From positions 1-11,566 of the forward strand of contig DAOVMD010000053.1 in the NCBI GenBank assembly GCA_030630935.1: a stretch of 11,566 nucleotides of DNA, written 5' to 3'. Shown here one piece after another: positions 1 through 11,566 of the stretch. This DNA is from Candidatus Mcinerneyibacteriota bacterium. GTDB taxonomy: Bacteria > AUK180 > JAQVHJ01. The position numbers were made by a program, and so were the translations under genes. How positions within the stretch are numbered: the stretch's first letter is position 1; every line of letters begins with the position of its first letter. The notes under the pieces are model-generated. The model was not told the origin of the DNA. It worked only from the letters and a program-made list of their open reading frames with translations, and did not search any database.

Positions 1-480
1 ATAGTTCATGTAAGTGATCCTGTTGAGATAGTTGGAATTAAGGATACCCGCAAGACAGTTTGTACCGGAGTTGAGATGTTCCGTAAGTTACTTGATGAAG
101 GTCAAGCAGGAGATAATATAGGCGTATTGTTAAGAGGCGTAGATAAGAAGGATGTTCAGCGTGGCCAAGTAGTTGCAGCCGTTGGTTCAATTACTCCGCA
201 TACGAAGTTTGAATCGGAAGTTTACGTATTGACCGAGAAAGAAGGAGGAAGACACAAGGCATTCTATTCAGGTTATCGTCCGCAGTTTTATTTTAGAACG
301 ACTGACGTAACCGGAACAGTTACCTTACCGACTGACATTAAGATGGTCATGCCTGGTGACAGGGTCTCCATAGTAGGAGAATTAATTACTCCTATCGCAA
401 TGGAAGAAGGCCTCAGGTTTGCTATCCGTGAAGGTGGTAGAACAATCGGTGCAGGTGTTGTTTCTAAAATTATTGAATAA
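1..480 (+). CDS. tuf: Elongation factor Tu, C-terminal part (5' end cut by window)
   Basis: EF-Tu carries aminoacyl-tRNA to the ribosomal A site as a GTP complex in the cytoplasm. The frame is open from base 1 and ends in TAA at 478-480, giving 159 residues that correspond to roughly residues 236 to 394 of the E. coli protein. This covers the end of beta-barrel domain 2 and all of domain 3; the GTPase domain lies outside the window. Diagnostic strings are [52 protein letters not shown] and [15 protein letters not shown]. The family match is unambiguous and no lesion is visible. An internal ATG at 76 is only a Met codon in the conserved EMFRKLL segment, not the start. The next gene begins 12 bases after the stop, so the two are probably co-transcribed. 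Confidence 0.97.
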
Positions 481-492
481 AGGATAATAATA

Positions 493-645
493 ATGGCAGG
501 TGAAGTAGTAATCCTAGCTTGTGAAATTTGTAAGTTACGAAATTACAGTACCACAAGAAATAAAAAAACGAATAAAGAAAAGATTTCTTTAAAGAAGTAT
601 TGTAAAAAGTGCAGGAAGCACACTTTACATAAAGAAACCAAGTAA
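493..645 (+). CDS. rpmG: 50S ribosomal protein L33, four-cysteine zinc form
   Basis: A 50-residue basic protein of the large ribosomal subunit. It has the L33 pattern: a short N-terminal strand (VVILACEIC), a middle segment with NYSTTRNKK, and a C-terminal [16 protein letters not shown]. Two CxxC pairs, Cys10/Cys13 and Cys37/Cys40, form a zinc ribbon, so this is the zinc-binding (C+) version rather than the cysteine-free paralogue. Length matches the family (about 49 to 55 residues). The start is ATG at 493, preceded by AGGA at 481-484, directly after the tuf stop. It sits between tuf and tRNA-Trp, the usual place for L33 in this gene cluster. Confidence 0.93.
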
Positions 646-659
646 CAGTAATAGTGTGA

Positions 660-735
660 AGGCCAGTTGCTCAATTGGCAGAGCATCCCGCTCCAAACGG
701 GAAGGTTGGGGGTTCGAGTCCCTCCTGGCCTGCCA
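660..735 (+). tRNA. trnW: tRNA-Trp (anticodon CCA)
   Basis: A complete 76-base cloverleaf. The acceptor arm pairs AGGCCAG (660-666) with CTGGCCT (725-731), followed by discriminator G732 and an encoded CCA at 733-735. The D stem is GCTC/GAGC (669-672 with 681-684). The anticodon stem is TCCCG/CGGGA around loop CTCCAAA, with anticodon CCA at 693-695. The T arm has TTCGAGT in the loop. It decodes UGG as tryptophan. It lies inside the operon between rpmG and secE, 14 bases after the L33 stop and 24 bases before the secE start, so it must be cut out of the polycistronic transcript by tRNA-processing enzymes. Confidence 0.97.
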
Positions 736-759: not shown

Positions 760-963
760 ATGAAGAAGATTATACAGTGGTTTAAAAATCTCCCGGCAAA
801 TATCAGATTGATTATAGTAGAAGCGAAGAGAGTTTCATGGCCAGGAAAGAAGGAAGTTTGGGGTTCAACTTTAGTCGTAATTGTGTTAATAATTATATTT
901 GCAATTATTATCGGAATTTTTGATCTTGGAATTACAAAAGGATTTAATCTTATCCTAAAATAA
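760..963 (+). CDS. secE: Preprotein translocase subunit SecE
   Basis: A 67-residue inner-membrane protein that clamps and stabilises SecY in the SecYEG protein export channel. It has the short single-span layout common outside enterobacteria. An amphipathic N-terminal helix (residues 1-20) leads to the signature EAKRVSWPGKKEV (about 21-33), equivalent to the conserved E..KV.WP.R.E segment. One hydrophobic transmembrane helix follows (about 36-59, rich in Ile and Val), then a short tail. The ATG at 760 is preceded only by a weak AGG at 747-749. Position after tRNA-Trp and directly before nusG is the classic secE-nusG pairing; the gap to nusG is 10 bases. Confidence 0.95.
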   Translation: MKKIIQWFKNLPANIRLIIVEAKRVSWPGKKEVWGSTLVVIVLIIIFAIIIGIFDLGITKGFNLILK

Positions 964-973
964 AAGGTTTGAT

Positions 974-2068
974 ATGGAAAACGAAGAAAAGAAAGAAATA
1001 GAAATTAATGAGAAAAACCCGGACCAAGTTCCGGAAACAGAAGTTGTAGAGGAAAAGGCAGTAGATGCTGGTGAGAACTTAGTGACTGACGGTGAATCAG
1101 AATCAATAAAAGCTGAAGAACCGACTGTTTCAAGTGACGAGCCTAAGGAAGATGACTCAACCGAATCCGGAGAAGAGGTTGAAGCCGAGCCGGAATCAGA
1201 ATCAATAAAAGCTGAAGAACCGACTGTTTCAAAAAACGAGCCTAAGGAAGATGACTCAACCGAATCCGGAGAAGCAATTGAAGCCGAGCCGGAATCAGAA
1301 CCAGTAAAAGTTGAAGAACCGACTGATTCAAGTGACGAGCCTAAGGAAGATGCCACAGCAGCACCCGGCGAAGCAATTGAACCAGCCCCGGAATCAGAAC
1401 CAGTAAAAACTGAAGAGCCGACTGTTTCAGGTGACGAGCCTAAGGAAGATGCAACCGCAGCACCAGGTGAAGAAATTGAACCCGAACCGGAATCACATAT
1501 ATTGATCGGACCCAATGGTGAGATTTTCGATATTGACAGTGAGTTCCAATGGTATTTTGTTCAAGTTCTTTCAGGTCAGGAAGATAAAATTGCTAAGATT
1601 TTATTAGAGATAATAAAGGTAAGACATTTTCAAGAAGAGATTACAGATGTTTTAGTTCTAAAAGCAGAAAAAGCTCAACGAAATCGAAAAGGCGAGAAGA
1701 AGCTAGTATTAAAGAAACTTTATCCCGGTTATATTTTGATTAGAATGAGAATGAAGGATGAGAACTGGAGTCTTATTCGAAATTCAAATAATGTAATAGA
1801 TTTTGTTGGAGGTAAATATAATCCTAATTCAATTTCTCAACAGGAATGGGAAGAGATCTTTTTAGGTAAGAAGAAGGCGAAGCGTGACGAGGTTAGGATT
1901 AAGTTTAGTGTAAATGAAAAAGTTAAGATAGTTGGCGGTGCATTCGCTAATTTTTACGGCGACATTGCTGAAATCAATGAAGACAAAGAGCATTTAAAAA
2001 TATTACTCTCAATTTTCGGCAGGTTAACACCGGTTGAATTGGGATTTGATGAAGTAGAGAAAATTTAA
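974..2068 (+). CDS. nusG: Transcription factor NusG with a long acidic repeat extension at the N-terminus
   Basis: NusG binds the beta' clamp helices of elongating RNA polymerase and, through its KOW domain, Rho or ribosomal protein S10. This protein has 364 residues against about 180 usually. Residues 1-172 are acidic, low-complexity sequence rich in Glu, Asp, Pro, Ser and Thr, including four 33-residue repeats. A short bridge (HILIGPNGEIFDIDSEF) follows. The NusG core runs from about residue 191: QWYFVQVLSGQE, LYPGYILIRM and a GG turn mark the NGN domain (to about 300). The KOW domain (about 311-364) keeps Phe348 and Arg350 in SIFGRLTPVEL, equivalent to the E. coli residues contacting Rho or S10. 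ATG at 974 follows AAAGG at 963-967. No in-frame start closer to the core has a convincing ribosome binding site. Core identity is certain; the function of the extension is unknown. Confidence 0.93.
   Translation: MENEEKKEIEINEKNPDQVPETEVVEEKAVDAGENLVTDGESESIKAEEPTVSSDEPKEDDSTESGEEVEAEPESESIKAEEPTVSKNEPKEDDSTESGEAIEAEPESEPVKVEEPTDSSDEPKEDATAAPGEAIEPAPESEPVKTEEPTVSGDEPKEDATAAPGEEIEPEPESHILIGPNGEIFDIDSEFQWYFVQVLSGQEDKIAKILLEIIKVRHFQEEITDVLVLKAEKAQRNRKGEKKLVLKKLYPGYILIRMRMKDENWSLIRNSNNVIDFVGGKYNPNSISQQEWEEIFLGKKKAKRDEVRIKFSVNEKVKIVGGAFANFYGDIAEINEDKEHLKILLSIFGRLTPVELGFDEVEKI
1094..1489 (+). repeat. Four tandem 99-bp coding repeats in nusG
   Basis: Four consecutive in-frame units occupy 1094-1192, 1193-1291, 1292-1390 and 1391-1489, each encoding 33 residues. 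The shared pattern starts ESE, then has EEPT, a Ser-rich step, EPKED, and ends in a Glu/Pro-rich stretch. Units 1 and 2 differ at only 6 of 99 bases by eye. Units 3 and 4 resemble each other more than units 1 and 2, sharing EDATAAPGE where 1 and 2 have EDDSTESGE. This suggests two rounds of duplication. Each unit carries about 14 acidic and 2 basic residues in unit 1, with no Cys, Arg or aromatic residue. Confidence 0.95.
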
Positions 2069-2089: not shown

Positions 2090-2515
2090 ATGGCAGAAGC
2101 GATACGAGCGATTGTAAAATTGCATATTCAGGCGGGTAAAGCTACCCCATCCCCGCCGGTAGGTCCAGCATTAGGTCAGCATGGAGTTAACATTATGGAC
2201 TTTTGTAATAAGTTCAATCATGCCACCAAGGACCAGCCAGGTATGATTATACCGGTTGTTATTAGTATTTTTCAGGACAGGAGTTTCTCCTATATAATGA
2301 AGACTCCCCCTGCATCGATATTATTAAAGAAGGCGGCAGGTATAGTTAAGGCATCTGGAGAACCTAACAAGATCAAGATAGGCATAGTCAAGAAGTCCCA
2401 AGTTCTGGAGATTGCGAACCGGAAGATGGTTGATCTCAATGCAAATGATATTGACGGGGCTTATAAGATTATTGCAGGTACTGCCAGAAGTATGGGTATT
2501 GAAATTGAAGAATAA
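2090..2515 (+). CDS. rplK: 50S ribosomal protein L11
   Basis: L11 binds 23S rRNA at the GTPase-associated centre with L10 and L7/L12, and takes part in factor-dependent steps and in sensing uncharged tRNA. The protein has 141 residues, the normal length. The N-terminal domain has the invariant [20 protein letters not shown] proline-rich segment (about residues 21-40). The C-terminal rRNA-binding domain (about 72-141) includes [13 protein letters not shown] and a [22 protein letters not shown] helix-turn, which is typical. ATG at 2090 follows AAAGAGG at 2077-2083, 21 bases after nusG. No obvious L1-type regulatory leader fits in the short gap upstream. Confidence 0.97.
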
Positions 2516-2537
2516 TATTAATTAGGTGGAGAAACTT

Positions 2538-3251
2538 ATGACACCCCAAACAAAAAGAGTTAAGGAAAACTTAGCGAAGTTTGAAAAGGATAAAGCTTAT
2601 TCAATTGAAGAGGCAATCTCTTTATTGAAGCAGATGGTCGCTCCGAAATTTAATGAAACTGTAGAGCTTCATGTTAGGTTAGGAGTTGATCCCAGGCATG
2701 CTGATCAAATTGTTCGTGGGACAATAATCCTTCCACATGGTACAGGTAAGGATGTTAGAGTAATCGTATTTGCAAAAGGCGAAGAAGAGGAGAAGGCGAG
2801 ATTAGCCGGAGCAAATGAGGTTGGGTCAGCAGATTTAATTGAAAAAATCCAAGGCGGCTGGTTAGATTTTGATGTTGCGATAGCTCAACCTGAGATGATG
2901 CGTGATGTTGGGAAGATAGCCAGGATATTAGGTCCCCGAGGTTTAATGCCAAACCCGAAATCAGGAACAGTTGCAAAGGATATAGAGAAGGCAGTCAAGG
3001 AATTTAAGAGTGGTAAGTTAGAGTATAGAGTTGATAAAACATCCATTATTCATGTCCCGGTTGGTAAGGTTGCTTTTGATGAAGCGCAATTGTTAGATAA
3101 TTTAAAGGCAATATTTTATGCTATTGTTAGAGCGAAACCCGCTTCCGCAAAAGGTCAATATATCAAGAGTGTATTTATTACCTCTACTATGGGACCTAGT
3201 ATAAAAGTTGATGGACCCGGGTTTATTAATTTTGTAAAACAGCAGGGGTAG
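2538..3251 (+). CDS. rplA: 50S ribosomal protein L1
   Basis: L1 forms the mobile stalk at the E site of the large subunit, binding 23S rRNA and helping release deacylated tRNA. In many bacteria it also represses its own rplK-rplA mRNA. The protein has 237 residues, close to the usual 230 or so. Visible family motifs are [20 protein letters not shown] (about residues 35-54), [14 protein letters not shown], the conserved [16 protein letters not shown] loop (about 131-146), EYRVDK, and a C-terminal [15 protein letters not shown]. The ATG at 2538 is chosen over an in-frame GTG at 2526 because AGGTGGAG (2524-2531) is the ribosome binding site and contains that GTG. The stop at 3249-3251 lies 3 bases before rplJ. 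Confidence 0.96.
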
Positions 3252-3254
3252 AAA

Positions 3255-3779
3255 ATGGTTGCACCAAATAAAAAAGTTAAAGTACAGGTATTCCAAGACA
3301 AGATTGCAGACCAAAATGCCTACTTTTTTGCTGATTTCCAAGGCCTTTCGGTTAATGATCTCCGAAAATTGCGAGTTGAACTAATGCAGATTAACTCTTC
3401 ATTTGAGGTTGTAAAGAATCGGTTATTCAAAATTGCAATTAAGGAATCGGTAGAGGAATATCCACCAGAATTATTTACTGGAAATACAGCGATAATTATA
3501 TCGGATGAAAATATTACAACAACTGCCAAAGTCCTAAAGGACTACGGACGTGTTTTTAAGAAATTCCGTTTAAAAGGTGGTTTTTTAAATTCAAAATTCT
3601 TATCAAAGGAACAGCTAGCAGACTTGGCAACTCTTCCGCCAAAACCTGATATGGTTGCACAGTTCCTTGGTATGCTGCAATCACCTTTAAGAAGGCTTGC
3701 ATTTGCATTAAACAGTGGTCTTCAGAATTTCACTGTTGTACTTTCAGCGATTGCAAAGCAAAAAGACGCGAAAAATTAA
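3255..3779 (+). CDS. rplJ: 50S ribosomal protein L10
   Basis: L10 anchors L7/L12 dimers to the base of the ribosomal stalk next to L11. The protein has 174 residues, within the family range. The N-terminal RNA-binding region shows [22 protein letters not shown] and [13 protein letters not shown] (about residues 22-59). The middle has [13 protein letters not shown] and the [12 protein letters not shown] strand. The C-terminal helix (about 130-174), which docks L7/L12 dimers, carries [22 protein letters not shown] at 3255 is served by AGGGG at 3244-3248, inside the end of rplA, so translation is probably coupled. With only 3 bases before the start, there is no room for the long leader through which L10-L7/L12 represses this gene in E. 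coli. Confidence 0.95.
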
Positions 3780-3801
3780 AAAAGATTTGGAGGAACAAAT
3801 C

Positions 3802-4182
3802 ATGGCAAAACTAACCAAAGAAAACATAATTAAAGCCATCGAAGAGATGACAGTTCTTGAGCTCAACGAGCTTGTTAAAGATCTCGAAGATAAGTTTGGT
3901 GTTTCTGCAGCCGCAATGGCTCCAGTTGCAGCAGCAGCTCCTGTTGTTGAGGAAGCAGAAGAGGCTGAGCAGACAGAATTTGATGTAATCCTTGCCAACC
4001 CAGGTGAGAAAAAGATTCATGTCATCAAGGCAGTACGAGCAATTACCGGTCTTGACCTTAAAGCAGCTAAGGAATTAGTTGAAGCCGCCCCAAAAGCAGT
4101 CAAAGAGAAACTTAAAAAAGACGAAGCCGAAGATATCAAGGCTAAGCTCGAAGAAGTTGGTGCAATTGTTGAGATCAAGTAA
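3802..4182 (+). CDS. rplL: 50S ribosomal protein L7/L12
   Basis: The multi-copy stalk protein that recruits elongation factors and stimulates their GTPase activity. The protein has 126 residues, normal for the family. The N-terminal dimerisation domain (about 1-33) reads [20 protein letters not shown] flexible Ala/Pro/Glu hinge follows (about 37-57). The C-terminal factor-binding domain (about 58-126) has [36 protein letters not shown] and a closing GAIVEIK. ATG at 3802 follows a strong GGAGG at 3789-3793. A longer in-frame version from 3715 would overlap rplJ and add sequence foreign to the family, so it is not used. The gene is the last before a 158-base leader containing a hairpin. Confidence 0.97.
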
Positions 4183-4340: not shown

Positions 4341-7300
4341 ATGCCAAACTCTCAAAAAAAATATATAGAAAGAAAATCCTTTGCAGGTATCCATACAAAC
4401 ACAGAAGTTCCGAATCTTTTATTAACTCAGTTTCAATCGTACGAGAATTTCCTACAAAAGAATCTTCTCCCGGAAGAGAGGAAGAATATTGGGTTACAAT
4501 CTGCATTTAAAGATACATTTCCAATTTTTAATGATAGTGGAACACTTTCACTTGAATTTGTAAGTTTTAACCTTGGCAAACTAATCTATGGTGAGCGCGA
4601 ATGCAAGGAAAAGGGATTAACATACTCTGTTCCATTAAGATTAAAGGTTATGTTTGTAATCAGGGATATTGATGAAGTTACTGGTGAGAAGCGAATTAAA
4701 GAAATCAAGGAGGAAGATATTTATCTTGGTGATGTTCCTTTAATGACAGCCAGGGGGACCTTTATTACAAACGGTGCTGAGAGAGTTATTGTTTCTCAGC
4801 TTCATAGATCTCCAGGAGTTACTTTCCTTGAAGAAGAAGGGAAACTTGATGCTTCAGGCCAGAAATTATTTACTGCTAAGCTGATTCCATATTTTGGAAC
4901 ATGGTTAGAATTTTCTTATGATACGAATAATATTTTATACATTCTCATTGATCGAAAGAAGAAATTTCCTGTCACGACATACTTGAAAGCCTTAGGTTAT
5001 TCAGTCGAAGAAATTATTAAAATATTCTATGACACAATCGTGGTAAATATCTCGAAATCTTCAACTGAATATCATGGTTGGATAATTGCACAAGATGTCA
5101 TCAATGAAACGACAGGTGAGATAGTAGCGGAAGCAGGTATGGAGATTGATTCATTTTATATGAAGAGATTTTCACTTTTAAAAATCCATAAGGTTGAGTT
5201 AGTTGATGAGACTAAGGTTGTAAAATATACAATCTTAAATACCCTGCAGAAAGATACTGCAGAAGGTACTGATTCTGCCCTTGAGCAGATATATAAAAAG
5301 TTACGTCCTGGTTACCCGGTTAGTCCCAAGCTGGCAAAGGATTTATTTGAAAACCTTTTCTTTAATCCAAAGCGGTATTCTTTGGGTAAAGTCGGGCGTT
5401 ATAAATTAAATAAGAAATTCGGGATTGATATCAGCGAAGATACAATGATTTTAACTCGTGAAGATATTATCTCAACAATTGCAAAATTAACCAGTATTGA
5501 TACGGAGTCAGAAGAGAGTGACGACATTGATCATTTAAGTAATCGTCGAGTTCGTTCAGTTGGTGAGCTTGCAGAGAATGCAATCAGAAGTGGTCTTTTA
5601 AAGATGGCCAAATCAATCTCTGATAAACTGAATTTTCCTGATGTTGAAGAACTTCAGCCATACGATATTATTGTAACCAAGCACTTTACTTCTGCAATCA
5701 ACGATTTCTTTGGCCGTGGTCAATTATCACAGTTTATGGACCAGATCAATCCTCTTGCAGAGATTACACACAAGAGACGATTATCTGCTCTCGGACCAGG
5801 TGGTCTCCACAGGAAGCGTGCAGGTTTTAAAGTCAGAGATATTCATCCTACACATTACGGCAGGATTTGTCCGATTGAAACACCTGAAGGCCCTAACATT
5901 GGTTTAATTACCTCACTTGCCACGTATGCAAAGGTTAACGAATACGGTTTAATCGAGACTCCATTTAAGAAAGTCACAAACGGCAAATTAACAACTGAAA
6001 TATTTTACATGACTGCAGATGAGAGTGATAAATATATTATCACCCAGGCTACTACAAAAGTAGATAAGAACGGTAAAATAGTTGATAAATTCATATACGG
6101 TTCAAAGAAGGGTGAGACATTATATGTAACCCCGAAAGATGTTCAATTTATTGATATCAGTCCTACTCAATTAGTTTCAATTTCATCAGCCTTGATTCCA
6201 TTTCTTGAGCATGATGATGCGAACAGGGCACTTATGGGTTCTAATATGCAGCGCCAGTCAGTACCTTTATTATTTCCCCGGCCTCCAATCGTTGGAACCG
6301 GAATGGAGAAAATTGTTGCACGCGACTCCGGAATGGTTCATCTTGCGAAGCGTTCAGGTAAAGTTAAGTATATTGATGCAACTAAAATCATTATTGAACC
6401 TGATAAAAAAGAAGATGAATTTGATAATAAAGATATATACTACCTTTCAAAATTTTTCCGTTCTAATCAAGATACTTGTATTAATCAAACCCCTATCGTT
6501 GAGCTGGGGCAGAAGGTAAAGAAGGGAGCAGTTCTTTCAAATGGAATGAGTATTGATAGCGGGGAACTTGCATTAGGGAATAATGTCCTGGTAGCATTTA
6601 TGCCCTGGGAAGGTTATAACTTTGAAGATGCAATTCTGATTAGTGAGAGATTATTGAAGGACGAGGTGTACACTTCTATTCATATCCAGGTAAATAAAAC
6701 TGAAGCTCGAATGACAAAGCTTGGTCCCGAAGAGATCACGCGGGATGTTCCTAATGTAAACGAGAAGCAGTTATCAAAACTTGATGAAGGCGGAATAATT
6801 CAAGTTGGTGCATATATTCAGCCTGGTGATATTCTTGTTGGGAAAGTTACTCCACGAGGTGAGACAGAATTAACCGGTGAAGAGAAGCTCTTGAAAATTA
6901 TATTTGGAAAGAAAGCCGGTGATGTTAGGAACACTTCATTAGTTGCTGACCAGAGTACAAAAGGTACAGTAATTGATGTTAAGGTTTTTTCCAGGAATGA
7001 GAGTGAGCTTGATGAAGGTTCACGAAACCAAATTAAGAGGAAAATTCAAAACATTAAGGATCAGGTTGAAGTTGATAAGCAGCGGCTTGAAAAGCAGTAT
7101 ATTGCAAATATTCAAATTGGAATAAAGAAAATTCCTATTTCTAAGTCCATTAAAGATGCCGAGAAAAAGATCCTTGTTAAGAAGGGTGCATTTTTAAGTA
7201 TTACCGATATCACCACTTGTTTAACCATGAAGATTGACATTGGAAATTATTTCACTGATCTTGAAGCTGTTGAGAAAATTGCAGTTTTACAGGATAAATA

Positions 7301-10300
7301 TAAAGATAATCTTTCTAAAATTAATCATCAATTGAAGAAAGACATGGATATTATTAAGAGAAGTGAGAACTTACCCGCTGGAGTCATCAAGAGTGTCAGT
7401 ATTTATACAGCACAAAAGAGGAAGATCACGATAGGTGATAAAATGGCAGGTCGGCACGGAAACAAAGGTGTTGTTGCAAAGGTTCTTCCTATTGAAGAGA
7501 TGCCTTATTCAAAAGATGGTACACCTGTCGATATCGTATTGAATCCGCTTGGTGTTCCTTCACGTATGAATATCGGGCAGATCTATGAAACATTATTAAG
7601 TTATGCTGGGTTCATTCTCAATGAGGATTATGAATCCCCTGTCTTTGATGGTGCGTCAGAGAAGGATTTACTGGATTTATTTAAGAAAGCCGGGATCCAG
7701 AAAACTGGTAAAACCACGTTATACGATGGAAGAACCGGAGACGTTTTTGATCAGGATGTTACGGTTGGTGTTATGTATATGATGAAGTTGAACCACCTCG
7801 CAGAGGATAAGGTTCATGCCAGGTCAACTGGTCCATACTCTCTCGTAACACAGCAGCCATTGGGTGGTAAAGCACAGATGGGTGGTCAGCGCTTAGGAGA
7901 GATGGAGGTTTGGGCATTAGAAGCTTATGGCGCAGCATTTACTTTACAAGAAATGCTGACAATTAAGTCTGATGATATTGATGGCCGGTTAAAGGTATTT
8001 GAATCAATTATTAAAGGAGAAAATCCTTCATCGCCCGGTATTCCTGAATCATTCCACGTTCTTGTTAAGGAATTACAAGGGTTATGTTTTGATATTGATT
8101 TAATAAAAGATAAGTCAGACAACCGAAAGTTCAGTGGAATCAAGATTCGCTTAGCTTCACCTGAGAAGATCAGGTCATGGTCTTTTGGAGAAGTTAAGAA
8201 AGCAGAAACAATAAATTATCGTACTTTTAAAGCTGAAAGAGACGGTTTGTTCTGTGAGAGAATTTTTGGACCTACAAAGAACTGGAGATGTCAATGCGGG
8301 AAGTTTAAAGGTAAGAAATTTAAAGGAACCCGTTGTGACCGTTGTGGAGTTGAATTAACAGAAAAGAGTGAGCGTCGTCGAAGAATGGGTCATATTGAGC
8401 TTGCAGAGCCAGTTGCAAATGTCTTATTTTTCCATGGCAGCCTTTCAAATTATATTGGATATCTTCTTGACATGAAAGTTAAGGATATTGAACGATGTAT
8501 ATATTATGAGAATTATATCGTAACAGATCCAGGTAAGACCCCGCTCAAGTATAAGCAGGTTTTCCCTGAAAGATTATACCGGCAGTTCAAAGCAGATTAT
8601 GGTGAGAATTCTTTCCAAGCTTCAATTGGAGCCAGGGGCATCAGGAAATTATTGAGTAAACTTGATATCCCGAAAATGTATAAGGAATTAAGATTACAGA
8701 TCAAGGAATATGAAGAGAAGGAACAGAAGACATTAAAGGATAAGCGAATCATTAAAAAGATGAAGATTGTCAGATCGTTGTATAATTCTGATAATAAACC
8801 CGAGTGGATGATCCTTGATGTTTTACCGGTTATTCCGCCTGACCTAAGACCATTAGTTCCATTAGAAGGTTCCCGGTTTGCAGCTTCAGATTTGAATGAT
8901 TTATATAGAAGAGTAATTAACAGGAATAATAGGTTAAAGAAATTTAAAGAAGCTGAAGTTCCTGATATTATCATTAAGAACGAAAAGAGAATGCTTCAGG
9001 AATCAGTTGATACTTTATTTGATAATGGTCGTCGCGGCAGGGAAGTTTTAGGTTCAAATAAGCGTCCTCTAAAATCACTCTGTGAAATGCTGCGTAGTAA
9101 ACGCGGTCGATTCAGGCAGAACCTATTAGGAAAAAGAGTTGATTATTCCGGTCGAGCAGTTATTGTTGTTAATCCAAAACTAAAGATTTCTGAATGCGGT
9201 TTACCAAAGGAGATTGGTCTTGAGTTATTTGAACCATTTATCAAACATAGAATGAAGGTTTATGACGATAAAAAGATCACCCAGGGTTTAAGGATTATTA
9301 AATATCTTGATGAACAACCTCAGATGTTAACCTTCCTTCAGAAAGAGTTTGAGAGACGCCTTGTTCTATTAAACAGAGCCCCAACTCTTCATAGGTTAGG
9401 GATCCAGGCATTTCAACCAAAACTTGTTCCGGGGAAAGCAATTCACATGCACCCATTAGTATGTGCCGCCTTCAATGCAGACTTTGACGGTGACCAGGTT
9501 GCGGTGCATCTGCCTTTATCGGTGGAAGCTCAACTTGAATCCAGGTTGTTGATGTGGTCAAAAACAAATATCTTATCCTCTTCAAATGGTGAGCCGATTG
9601 TTGTTCCGTCTCAGGATATGATTCTTGGAATTTATTATTTAACCAAGGACGTTGAAGGTGGAGTAAGTAATCCTGTTCCGTATTGTACAATTGAAGAGAT
9701 TGAGCTTGCATATTATCATAAGAACATTACTCTTCACGAGCCTATCAAGTTTGCTTTAAAAAATGGTGACATAATTAAAACCACACCGGGTAGAGTTATT
9801 TTTAATTCAATTTTACCTGAGGAGTTAGGTTTTATAAACAGGACAGTTACAAAAACTTACCTGAAGAAAGTTATCTATAAAGCTTACAAGCTTACTGCTC
9901 GTGAGAAAGTAATCGAAATGCTTGATGAGATTAAGCGTTTAGGATTTAAGTACTCAACAATTGGTGGTATTACTTTTGGATTATTCGATATTGTTATTCC
10001 GCCAGAAAAATATAAGATTTTAAAAGAGACCGAAGTAGTTATTAAGGAAATCAATGACAGTTATCAAAAAGGATTAATCACAGATGTTGAAAGATATAAA
10101 ACTGTTATTGATAAATGGGCCAAGACAAATTATCAAATCCAGGCAAAAATGCTCCAGACCCTGAAGAGAGGTAATCTTGAGGATAAGAGAACCTTATTTA
10201 ATCCTATCTATATTATGTATGATTCAAAAGCAAGAGGTTCAGAGCAGCAGATTAGACAGTTAGCCGGAATGCGTGGTTTGATGGAGAAACCGTCAGGTGA

Positions 10301-11566
10301 GATTATTGAGATTCCTATACAATCCAATTTCCGTGAGGGCTTGAATGTTCTTGAGTACTTTATATCAGCGCATGGTGCTCGAAAAGGACTTGCTGATACT
10401 GCCTTGAAAACTTCTGAATCCGGTTATTTAACCAGACGTCTTGTAGATGTCGCACAGGATTTAATTATTATTGAAGATGATTGCGGAGCGAATACCGGTA
10501 TTGAAGTCACGGAACTTAAACGTGGAGACAAGGTCTATGATGATATATCTTCCAGAATTATTGGGAGATTTCTCTCTGCTGATGTTAAGGATCCAATTTC
10601 AAATAAGAAAATCGCCAAGAAAAATGCTTATGTTGATGAAGATTTGGCAATGAAGATTCAGAAAGCCGGGGTTCGAACAGTTAATGTAAGATCAGTTTTA
10701 ACTTGCCAGACAAATCGCGGAATTTGTCAGAAATGTTATGGTCGGGATCTTGGTACGGGTGACTTGATTGAAATGGGCGAAGCAGTGGGTATTATTGCAG
10801 CCCAGAGTATTGGTGAGCCTGGAACACAGCTGACGATGAGAACATTCCATATCGGTGGTATTACTTCTAAGCGAGTTGAGAAAGATAAAATCGTTGCGAA
10901 TATGCTTACGATTATGAATGGTGGAGTTTATAGGATTGCTGATATCGAAGGGAAATTAGTTCTTGACGGATTTAAGCGCACCGAAAAATTAACCAAGAAG
11001 AAAACTTATAATATTTCTAACGGTGTTTTTTCGATATTCTCAGAGAATTATCCCAAACCAATTATAATTGACTTTAATCCCAATAATGGTTTAATTTCCA
11101 GGATTCACTCTGGAAACAAGAAGGATTATGATAAGGTTGCATTATTAAAGGGAACTGTAAAATACAGACTTCAATATAATAAAAAACCCAATTCAAATAA
11201 TGAAATCCGTAACCTGTCGCGAGATGCGGAGATTATAATCCTTTCTGATCGAGTTAGGGAAAAAGAAATTATTGTTGACCCAAAGACCTCAGAGATTTCT
11301 GTAACCTTTTCCACTTCAGGTGAGAACATTATTCATCCAAAGACAAAAGAGAAGATTTGTCCCAAGGGTCATATAATTGATGCAAGTCGTGCAAATGAAA
11401 TAGTTAAGGCCGGTTTTACTTCTGTCAAGGTTTTTGTAGAATTAGAAAGATATAAAATTCCTTATGGAGCAAAATTAGTGATCAAGAATGGTGCAAAGAT
11501 TTCTAAAAAGACCACAATTGCAGTAAAAACCATGTATTTTGAACCCATTCTTTCAGAAGCAAATGG
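4341..11566 (+). CDS. rpoBC: Fused RNA polymerase beta-beta' subunit (3' end beyond window)
   Basis: One frame with no stop encodes both catalytic subunits of RNA polymerase; 2408 codons are visible. Beta occupies residues 1 to about 1254. It has IVSQLHRSPGV near 157, the rifampicin pocket from Gln461 (QLSQFMDQINPL, HKRRLSALGPGG; Asp467, His477 and Ser482 equal E. coli D516, H526 and S531), a coiled-coil SI2-like insertion before LPAGVIK, GDKMAGRHGNKG with Lys1034 and Lys1042, and KVHARSTGPYSLVTQQPLGG. After a linker of about 13 residues beta' begins at KIRLASPEKIRSWSFGEV. Zinc site 1 is Cys1317, 1319, 1332 and 1335. The Mg-binding NADFDGD is at 1712-1718. Zinc site 2 is Cys2048, 2122, 2129 and 2132, with E. 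coli spacing. The trigger helix has Met2166 and His2170. An enlarged trigger-loop insertion is still running at the window edge. The start at 4341 follows AGGAAG and aligns with other beta N-termini. All catalytic residues seen are intact. Confidence 0.96.
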   Translation, partial: MPNSQKKYIERKSFAGIHTNTEVPNLLLTQFQSYENFLQKNLLPEERKNIGLQSAFKDTFPIFNDSGTLSLEFVSFNLGKLIYGERECKEKGLTYSVPLRLKVMFVIRDIDEVTGEKRIKEIKEEDIYLGDVPLMTARGTFITNGAERVIVSQLHRSPGVTFLEEEGKLDASGQKLFTAKLIPYFGTWLEFSYDTNNILYILIDRKKKFPVTTYLKALGYSVEEIIKIFYDTIVVNISKSSTEYHGWIIAQDVINETTGEIVAEAGMEIDSFYMKRFSLLKIHKVELVDETKVVKYTILNTLQKDTAEGTDSALEQIYKKLRPGYPVSPKLAKDLFENLFFNPKRYSLGKVGRYKLNKKFGIDISEDTMILTREDIISTIAKLTSIDTESEESDDIDHLSNRRVRSVGELAENAIRSGLLKMAKSISDKLNFPDVEELQPYDIIVTKHFTSAINDFFGRGQLSQFMDQINPLAEITHKRRLSALGPGGLHRKRAGFKVRDIHPTHYGRICPIETPEGPNIGLITSLATYAKVNEYGLIETPFKKVTNGKLTTEIFYMTADESDKYIITQATTKVDKNGKIVDKFIYGSKKGETLYVTPKDVQFIDISPTQLVSISSALIPFLEHDDANRALMGSNMQRQSVPLLFPRPPIVGTGMEKIVARDSGMVHLAKRSGKVKYIDATKIIIEPDKKEDEFDNKDIYYLSKFFRSNQDTCINQTPIVELGQKVKKGAVLSNGMSIDSGELALGNNVLVAFMPWEGYNFEDAILISERLLKDEVYTSIHIQVNKTEARMTKLGPEEITRDVPNVNEKQLSKLDEGGIIQVGAYIQPGDILVGKVTPRGETELTGEEKLLKIIFGKKAGDVRNTSLVADQSTKGTVIDVKVFSRNESELDEGSRNQIKRKIQNIKDQVEVDKQRLEKQYIANIQIGIKKIPISKSIKDAEKKILVKKGAFLSITDITTCLTMKIDIGNYFTDLEAVEKIAVLQDKYKDNLSKINHQLKKDMDIIKRSENLPAGVIKSVSIYTAQKRKITIGDKMAGRHGNKGVVAKVLPIEEMPYSKDGTPVDIVLNPLGVPSRMNIGQIYETLLSYAGFILNEDYESPVFDGASEKDLLDLFKKAGIQKTGKTTLYDGRTGDVFDQDVTVGVMYMMKLNHLAEDKVHARSTGPYSLVTQQPLGGKAQMGGQRLGEMEVWALEAYGAAFTLQEMLTIKSDDIDGRLKVFESIIKGENPSSPGIPESFHVLVKELQGLCFDIDLIKDKSDNRKFSGIKIRLASPEKIRSWSFGEVKKAETINYRTFKAERDGLFCERIFGPTKNWRCQCGKFKGKKFKGTRCDRCGVELTEKSERRRRMGHIELAEPVANVLFFHGSLSNYIGYLLDMKVKDIERCIYYENYIVTDPGKTPLKYKQVFPERLYRQFKADYGENSFQASIGARGIRKLLSKLDIPKMYKELRLQIKEYEEKEQKTLKDKRIIKKMKIVRSLYNSDNKPEWMILDVLPVIPPDLRPLVPLEGSRFAASDLNDLYRRVINRNNRLKKFKEAEVPDIIIKNEKRMLQESVDTLFDNGRRGREVLGSNKRPLKSLCEMLRSKRGRFRQNLLGKRVDYSGRAVIVVNPKLKISECGLPKEIGLELFEPFIKHRMKVYDDKKITQGLRIIKYLDEQPQMLTFLQKEFERRLVLLNRAPTLHRLGIQAFQPKLVPGKAIHMHPLVCAAFNADFDGDQVAVHLPLSVEAQLESRLLMWSKTNILSSSNGEPIVVPSQDMILGIYYLTKDVEGGVSNPVPYCTIEEIELAYYHKNITLHEPIKFALKNGDIIKTTPGRVIFNSILPEELGFINRTVTKTYLKKVIYKAYKLTAREKVIEMLDEIKRLGFKYSTIGGITFGLFDIVIPPEKYKILKETEVVIKEINDSYQKGLITDVERYKTVIDKWAKTNYQIQAKMLQTLKRGNLEDKRTLFNPIYIMYDSKARGSEQQIRQLAGMRGLMEKPSGEIIEIPIQSNFREGLNVLEYFISAHGARKGLADTALKTSESGYLTRRLVDVAQDLIIIEDDCGANTGIEVTELKRGDKVYDDISSRIIGRFLSADVKDPISNKKIAKKNAYVDEDLAMKIQKAGVRTVNVRSVLTCQTNRGICQKCYGRDLGTGDLIEMGEAVGIIAAQSIGEPGTQLTMRTFHIGGITSKRVEKDKIVANMLTIMNGGVYRIADIEGKLVLDGFKRTEKLTKKKTYNISNGVFSIFSENYPKPIIIDFNPNNGLISRIHSGNKKDYDKVALLKGTVKYRLQYNKKPNSNNEIRNLSRDAEIIILSDRVREKEIIVDPKTSEISVTFSTSGENIIHPKTKEKICPKGHIIDASRANEIVKAGFTSVKVFVELERYKIPYGAKLVIKNGAKISKKTTIAVKTMYFEPILSEAN
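8103..8141 (+). other. Beta-beta' fusion linker within rpoBC
   Basis: Beta-type sequence ends with IPESFHVLVKELQGL and FDIDL (last codon 8100-8102). That is where E. coli beta ends a few residues later. Beta'-type sequence begins at KIRLASP (8142 on), equivalent to roughly residue 21 of E. coli beta'. Only 13 residues, IKDKSDNRKFSGI, lie between. The normal acidic beta tail and the first 15 to 20 residues of beta' are missing or remodelled. There is no in-frame ATG, and no ribosome binding site paired with a start, near the junction. Beta' therefore cannot be made separately from here. Confidence 0.92.
10860..11566 (+). other. Large insertion in the beta' trigger loop (SI3-like, continues past window)
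   Basis: After the first trigger helix (TMRTFHIGG, ending 10859) the chain does not return to the second helix, recognisable by a GLPRV..LFEAR motif, within the remaining 235 residues. E. coli has an insertion here, SI3, made of sandwich-barrel hybrid motifs. The segment YKIPYGAKL at 11451-11477 resembles E. coli YKVPYGAVL inside SI3, but lies about 202 residues after the trigger His here against about 61 in E. coli. Roughly 140 extra residues therefore seem to be present before that point. The sequence is Lys/Ile/Asn-rich with strand-like segments and no catalytic motif. Confidence 0.7.

Follow-up and report, generated by a model that had tools for sequence, protein, structure and literature searches.

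Does a reading frame that runs from rpoB into rpoC without interruption represent a genuine gene fusion, how widely is such a fusion shared, and did it arise independently of the fusions already known? These questions are raised by a contig of 11,566 nucleotides (DAOVMD010000053.1) from the genome of a Candidatus Mcinerneyibacteriota bacterium (471 contigs, 3.16 Mb, 80% complete). We analysed this contig over its complete length and call it the window. To our knowledge, Helicobacteraceae and Wolbachia are the only groups usually cited for a fused RNA polymerase. Both groups have been named as carriers of a fused rpoBC (PMC7483510), and Helicobacter pylori lives with a fused β-β' RNA polymerase (PMC9696931).

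The β and β' subunits in a single frame

The open frame at 4341-11564 of the forward strand encodes 2408 residues without a stop, carries β and then β', and reaches the end of the contig. In a search with the NCBIfam profiles, this one protein was matched by the rpoB profile TIGR02013 (residues 9-1253) and by the rpoC profile TIGR02386 (residues 1267-2393), with the scores given in Table 1. The Pfam search retrieved the core domains of β and β' in their usual order. The β half is complete, and the window lacks the C-terminus of β' simply because the contig stops there. The sequence-only reading of this contig had proposed a natural fusion of the two subunits in one frame. This is confirmed, and the arrangement is of a kind already known.

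The junction is short. The match of PF04560 ends at residue 1255, that of PF04997 starts at 1262 and that of TIGR02386 at 1267, leaving a linker of 6 to 11 residues at about 8106-8138, in agreement with the 13 residues at 8103-8141 given by the first reading. That reading had also noted the loss of the normal β' N-terminus and of a start codon at the junction. We found likewise that the leader is absent in the window and that no in-frame ATG, GTG or TTG occurs between 60 codons upstream and 35 codons downstream of the conserved β' start, which rules out a hidden internal start for this subunit. A promoter scan of the window gave no promoter-like site at the junction. In a structure model of 750 residues, of low confidence (mean pLDDT 66.5), the linker is flanked by predicted strands at 331-336 and 347-352, as a hairpin across it would be.

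Table 1. Features of the window, with positions counted from its first nucleotide.
Feature	Position	Strand	Description
tuf (EF-Tu), 3' part	1..480	+	ORF translation
rpmG (ribosomal protein L33)	493..645	+	50-aa ORF, read from sequence
tRNA-Trp	660..735	+	ARAGORN and Rfam
secE-like small membrane protein gene	760..963	+	67-aa ORF
nusG with 192-aa acidic repetitive N-terminal extension	974..2068	+	TIGR00922 match at residues 193-364
rplK, rplA, rplJ, rplL (rplL from ~3802)	2090..4182	+	ORF translations
β (RpoB) half	4341..8105	+	residues 1-1255; TIGR02013 1675 bits; Pfam Rpb2 domains ordered
Linker between halves	8106..8138	+	at most ~11 residues; no stop; no nearby in-frame start codon
β' (RpoC) half	8139..11564	+	TIGR02386 1298 bits; N-terminal leader absent; C-terminus cut at contig end

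Conservation within the phylum

Our sample of the phylum comprises seven genomes from two families and six genera. The fusion is present in all five genomes with a readable junction, i.e., the window genome, G002, G003, G004 and G005. It was seen neither in G001, where the sequence ends inside β, nor in G006, which gave no match for rpoBC. The four complete fusions (G002-G005) are uninterrupted frames of 2794-2804 residues and extend past the point where the window is cut. Between fixed landmarks, the linker has 15-17 residues in the five readable genomes (15 in the window), and its sequence is poorly conserved.

The fusions of G002 and G003 differ with a dN of 0.0018 and a dS of 0.086 (dN/dS of about 0.02) over 2804 codons, and no replacement lies within 50 codons of the junction. 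The low dN relative to dS indicates strong purifying selection along the entire fusion. The fusion is thus both kept in the relatives and constrained and, within what could be read of these genomes, fixed throughout the phylum. We are highly confident that it is genuine and functional and that it was inherited from the ancestor of the phylum, and probably of a sister phylum as well.

The two families differ close to the junction. In the family that does not include the window (L118-L121), six residues are inserted right after the start of β' (WATRKNGYVGEVK versus WSFGEVK); the window lacks this insertion. Further on past the start of β', both families have one extra residue that is absent from the other fused lineages.

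Distribution in other lineages

We searched the junction in 386 genomes from many phyla and then read the candidate loci base by base; the rest of the sample was only partly read one by one at this level. The survey under-counts fusions because long linkers yield two matches. For example, G044, G189, G256 and G392 gave two survey matches each, yet they were fused when read at the base level. The reading of G256 ruled out an apparent contrast within one genus, in which G119 seemed fused and G256 unfused. An open frame of 2,600-2,950 residues was dropped as a sign of fusion, since this column of the survey reads through stops, and the cases used here were re-read by base.

We found the fusion in 30 out of 30 genomes with a readable junction in the G130 phylum (11 of them read directly), in seven out of seven in the G119 phylum, in all seven readable genomes of the G071 phylum (G389 by its open match alone), and in both readable genomes of the G044 phylum. 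The Helicobacter-type genome G047 is also fused. Among 80 named loci, the fused ones were three Helicobacter, L066 and L051, and the remaining 75 had separate genes. L051 ('bacterium CSMAG_1505', contig DAOVNU010000030.1) groups with the G130 phylum. The fusion is thus found across the phylum of the window and several other uncultured phyla, with a distribution wider than the textbook cases. The uniqueness implied by the first reading does not hold: the fusion is common to this phylum, probably to its sister phylum, and to several further uncultured phyla.

The linkers vary in length between these lineages. Measured between the same landmarks, they have 12-20 residues in the phylum of the window and the G130 phylum, 19-40 in the remaining uncultured phyla with a fusion, and 28-32 in Helicobacter. 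The FD motif that precedes the linker is mostly alike in the phylum of the window and the G130 phylum. The fusion of L066 (JAPPMC010000163.1, Bryobacterales, Acidobacteriota) is a separate one with a linker of 63 residues, and its neighbour L065 (Terriglobia) is unfused.

Number of origins

We built trees from β plus β' (1909 columns), including Helicobacter and no Wolbachia sequence. The phylum of the window and the G130 phylum, which are separate phyla, were grouped with a FastTree support of 0.99, and with an SH-aLRT of 95 under LG+C20 in two sets (two of the four trees). With half the columns this support drops to 53, and one tree of 84 rows, also with half the columns, placed the G130 phylum elsewhere. 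The G130 phylum is therefore probably the sister of the phylum of the window, in a placement that is not stable. The grouping and the similar linkers of the two phyla point to one fusion in their common ancestor, which is our best guess from the sequences.

A still older event might account for more of the distribution if one ancient fusion had been inherited by all five uncultured phyla and undone by a new split in many of the intervening lineages. Several of these phyla do sit near one another, where the tree is loosely resolved. Yet unfused groups fall between the five, their linkers differ, and forcing them into one clade cost 41 log-likelihood units, with an AU p of 0.025 (p 0.048 when four of the five were forced together). 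A single origin for the five phyla is weakly rejected by these tests, and we regard the ancient fusion as improbable. These analyses rather point to a minimum of four or five origins in the lineages sampled, to which that of Wolbachia would be added.

Predicted assembly of the fused enzyme

In the assembled RNA polymerase the C-terminus of β adjoins the N-terminus of β', so a linker of about ten residues can join the two halves with the fold unchanged. A single polypeptide of about 2,800 residues would supply both catalytic subunits. Translation would give β and β' tethered in a 1:1 ratio, β' would join β in cis, and the fused chain would presumably assemble normally with α2 and σ, uncleaved and with a fixed stoichiometry. 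Separate control of the two subunits would then be absent. In vitro, a functional polymerase can be assembled from a fused Escherichia coli β-β' (PMC1750930). No solved structure with both halves in one chain occurs among the best 60 PDB matches.

The chain could instead be made as one and then cut post-translationally into β and β', in which case the working enzyme would be the usual one. We know of no example of such cleavage among fused polymerases. The linker of the phylum, short and poorly conserved, does not suggest a processing site either, and this makes cleavage very unlikely.

Comparison with known polymerases

The fused rpoBC of Helicobacter and Wolinella (NF007172, PRK09603) resembles that of the window in carrying β and then β' in one frame with a shortened β' leader, and the Wolbachia gene (NF011417, PRK14844) is likewise a natural rpoB-rpoC fusion. 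The window protein, which is cut at the contig end, scores 2352 bits with NF007172 and 2199 bits with NF011417, against cut-offs of 5372 and 4632 bits; the complete fusion of G004 scores 2249.5 and 2039.5 bits, also below both. This agrees with the first reading, which judged the sequence not close to either group and from this proposed an independent fusion. In unconstrained trees, the phylum of the window lies far from Helicobacter, which sits beside unfused neighbours. Forcing the two together made the trees 22-39 log-likelihood units worse, with AU p values of 0.116 and 0.075. A shared origin with the Helicobacter fusion is therefore disfavoured and not rejected: independence from Helicobacter is likely given the separation in the trees, whereas the AU test falls short of formal proof.

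A horizontal transfer of the fusion from a relative of Helicobacter or Wolbachia would be compatible with these same p values, which concern the grouping with Helicobacter. Transfer is nonetheless scarcely credible, given the distance from Helicobacter in the free trees, a linker unlike that of Helicobacter in length (15 residues in the window) and in sequence, and scores below half of the cut-offs for both fusion models.

The separate rpoB and rpoC of E. coli and Bacillus have the same core domains in the same order, and the window differs from them by the lack of a stop, a spacer, a ribosome binding site and the N-terminal leader of β'. The two genes are adjacent in most bacteria and the source is a metagenome-assembled genome of 471 contigs and 80% completeness, but the loss of a real stop and start by an assembly or base-calling error is excluded for practical purposes, because a similar short-linker fusion recurs in four other assemblies of the phylum (G002-G005) and in the 30 readable genomes of the likely sister phylum, and because the loss of a stop would not have removed the spacer, the ribosome binding site and the leader, all three of which are gone.

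The ω subunit

The gene of the ω subunit, rpoZ, normally sits between gmk and coaBC. In the phylum of the window, coaBC comes immediately after gmk, without an intervening gene, in all six genomes showing both (L320-L325; G000, G002-G006), and none of the seven genomes gave a match to the ω profiles PF01192 or TIGR00690. The gmk-rpoZ synteny has been described in 18,302 of 23,517 genomes, and ω aids the folding of β' and its joining of the enzyme (PMC9973325). The phylum thus seems to be without an ω subunit. The two profiles miss some ω-like ORFs after gmk, so its ω may instead have diverged and moved. Such short ORFs lie just after gmk in the unfused G121, G244, G012 and G015.

The profile search showed that ω is kept in the G071, G119 and G044 phyla and in the Helicobacter-type genome, and it is detectable in part of the G130 phylum. 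Fusion alone is therefore not the cause of the loss of ω, and we ruled out this loss as a general result of fusion. In the phylum of the window, where ω would also have been lost, tethering could make it dispensable. We advance only tentatively, and with more doubt than confidence, the combined view that rpoBC fusions have a minimum of five or six origins and became fixed in whole uncultured phyla, and that the enzyme of this phylum works without ω, tethering having replaced the part of ω in assembly.

What these data add to the known fusions is that they extend through entire uncultured phyla and that ω may have been lost. With its fixation in five or more such phyla, the fusion provides replicate natural experiments on why nearly all bacteria separate the two subunits, and makes testable the idea that a tethered β-β' no longer needs ω. 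It also serves as a rare molecular marker of how poorly placed phyla are related. Marker sets that expect separate rpoB and rpoC may mishandle the fused lineages.

Upstream operon genes

The genes of the window follow the usual operon order, i.e., tuf, rpmG, tRNA-Trp, secE, nusG, rplK, rplA, rplJ, rplL, rpoB and rpoC. The acidic extension of NusG (974-1549) precedes a normal NusG domain and contains about four repeats of 33 residues. In the DNA these correspond to units of 99 bases at 1094-1495, with 87-88% matches.
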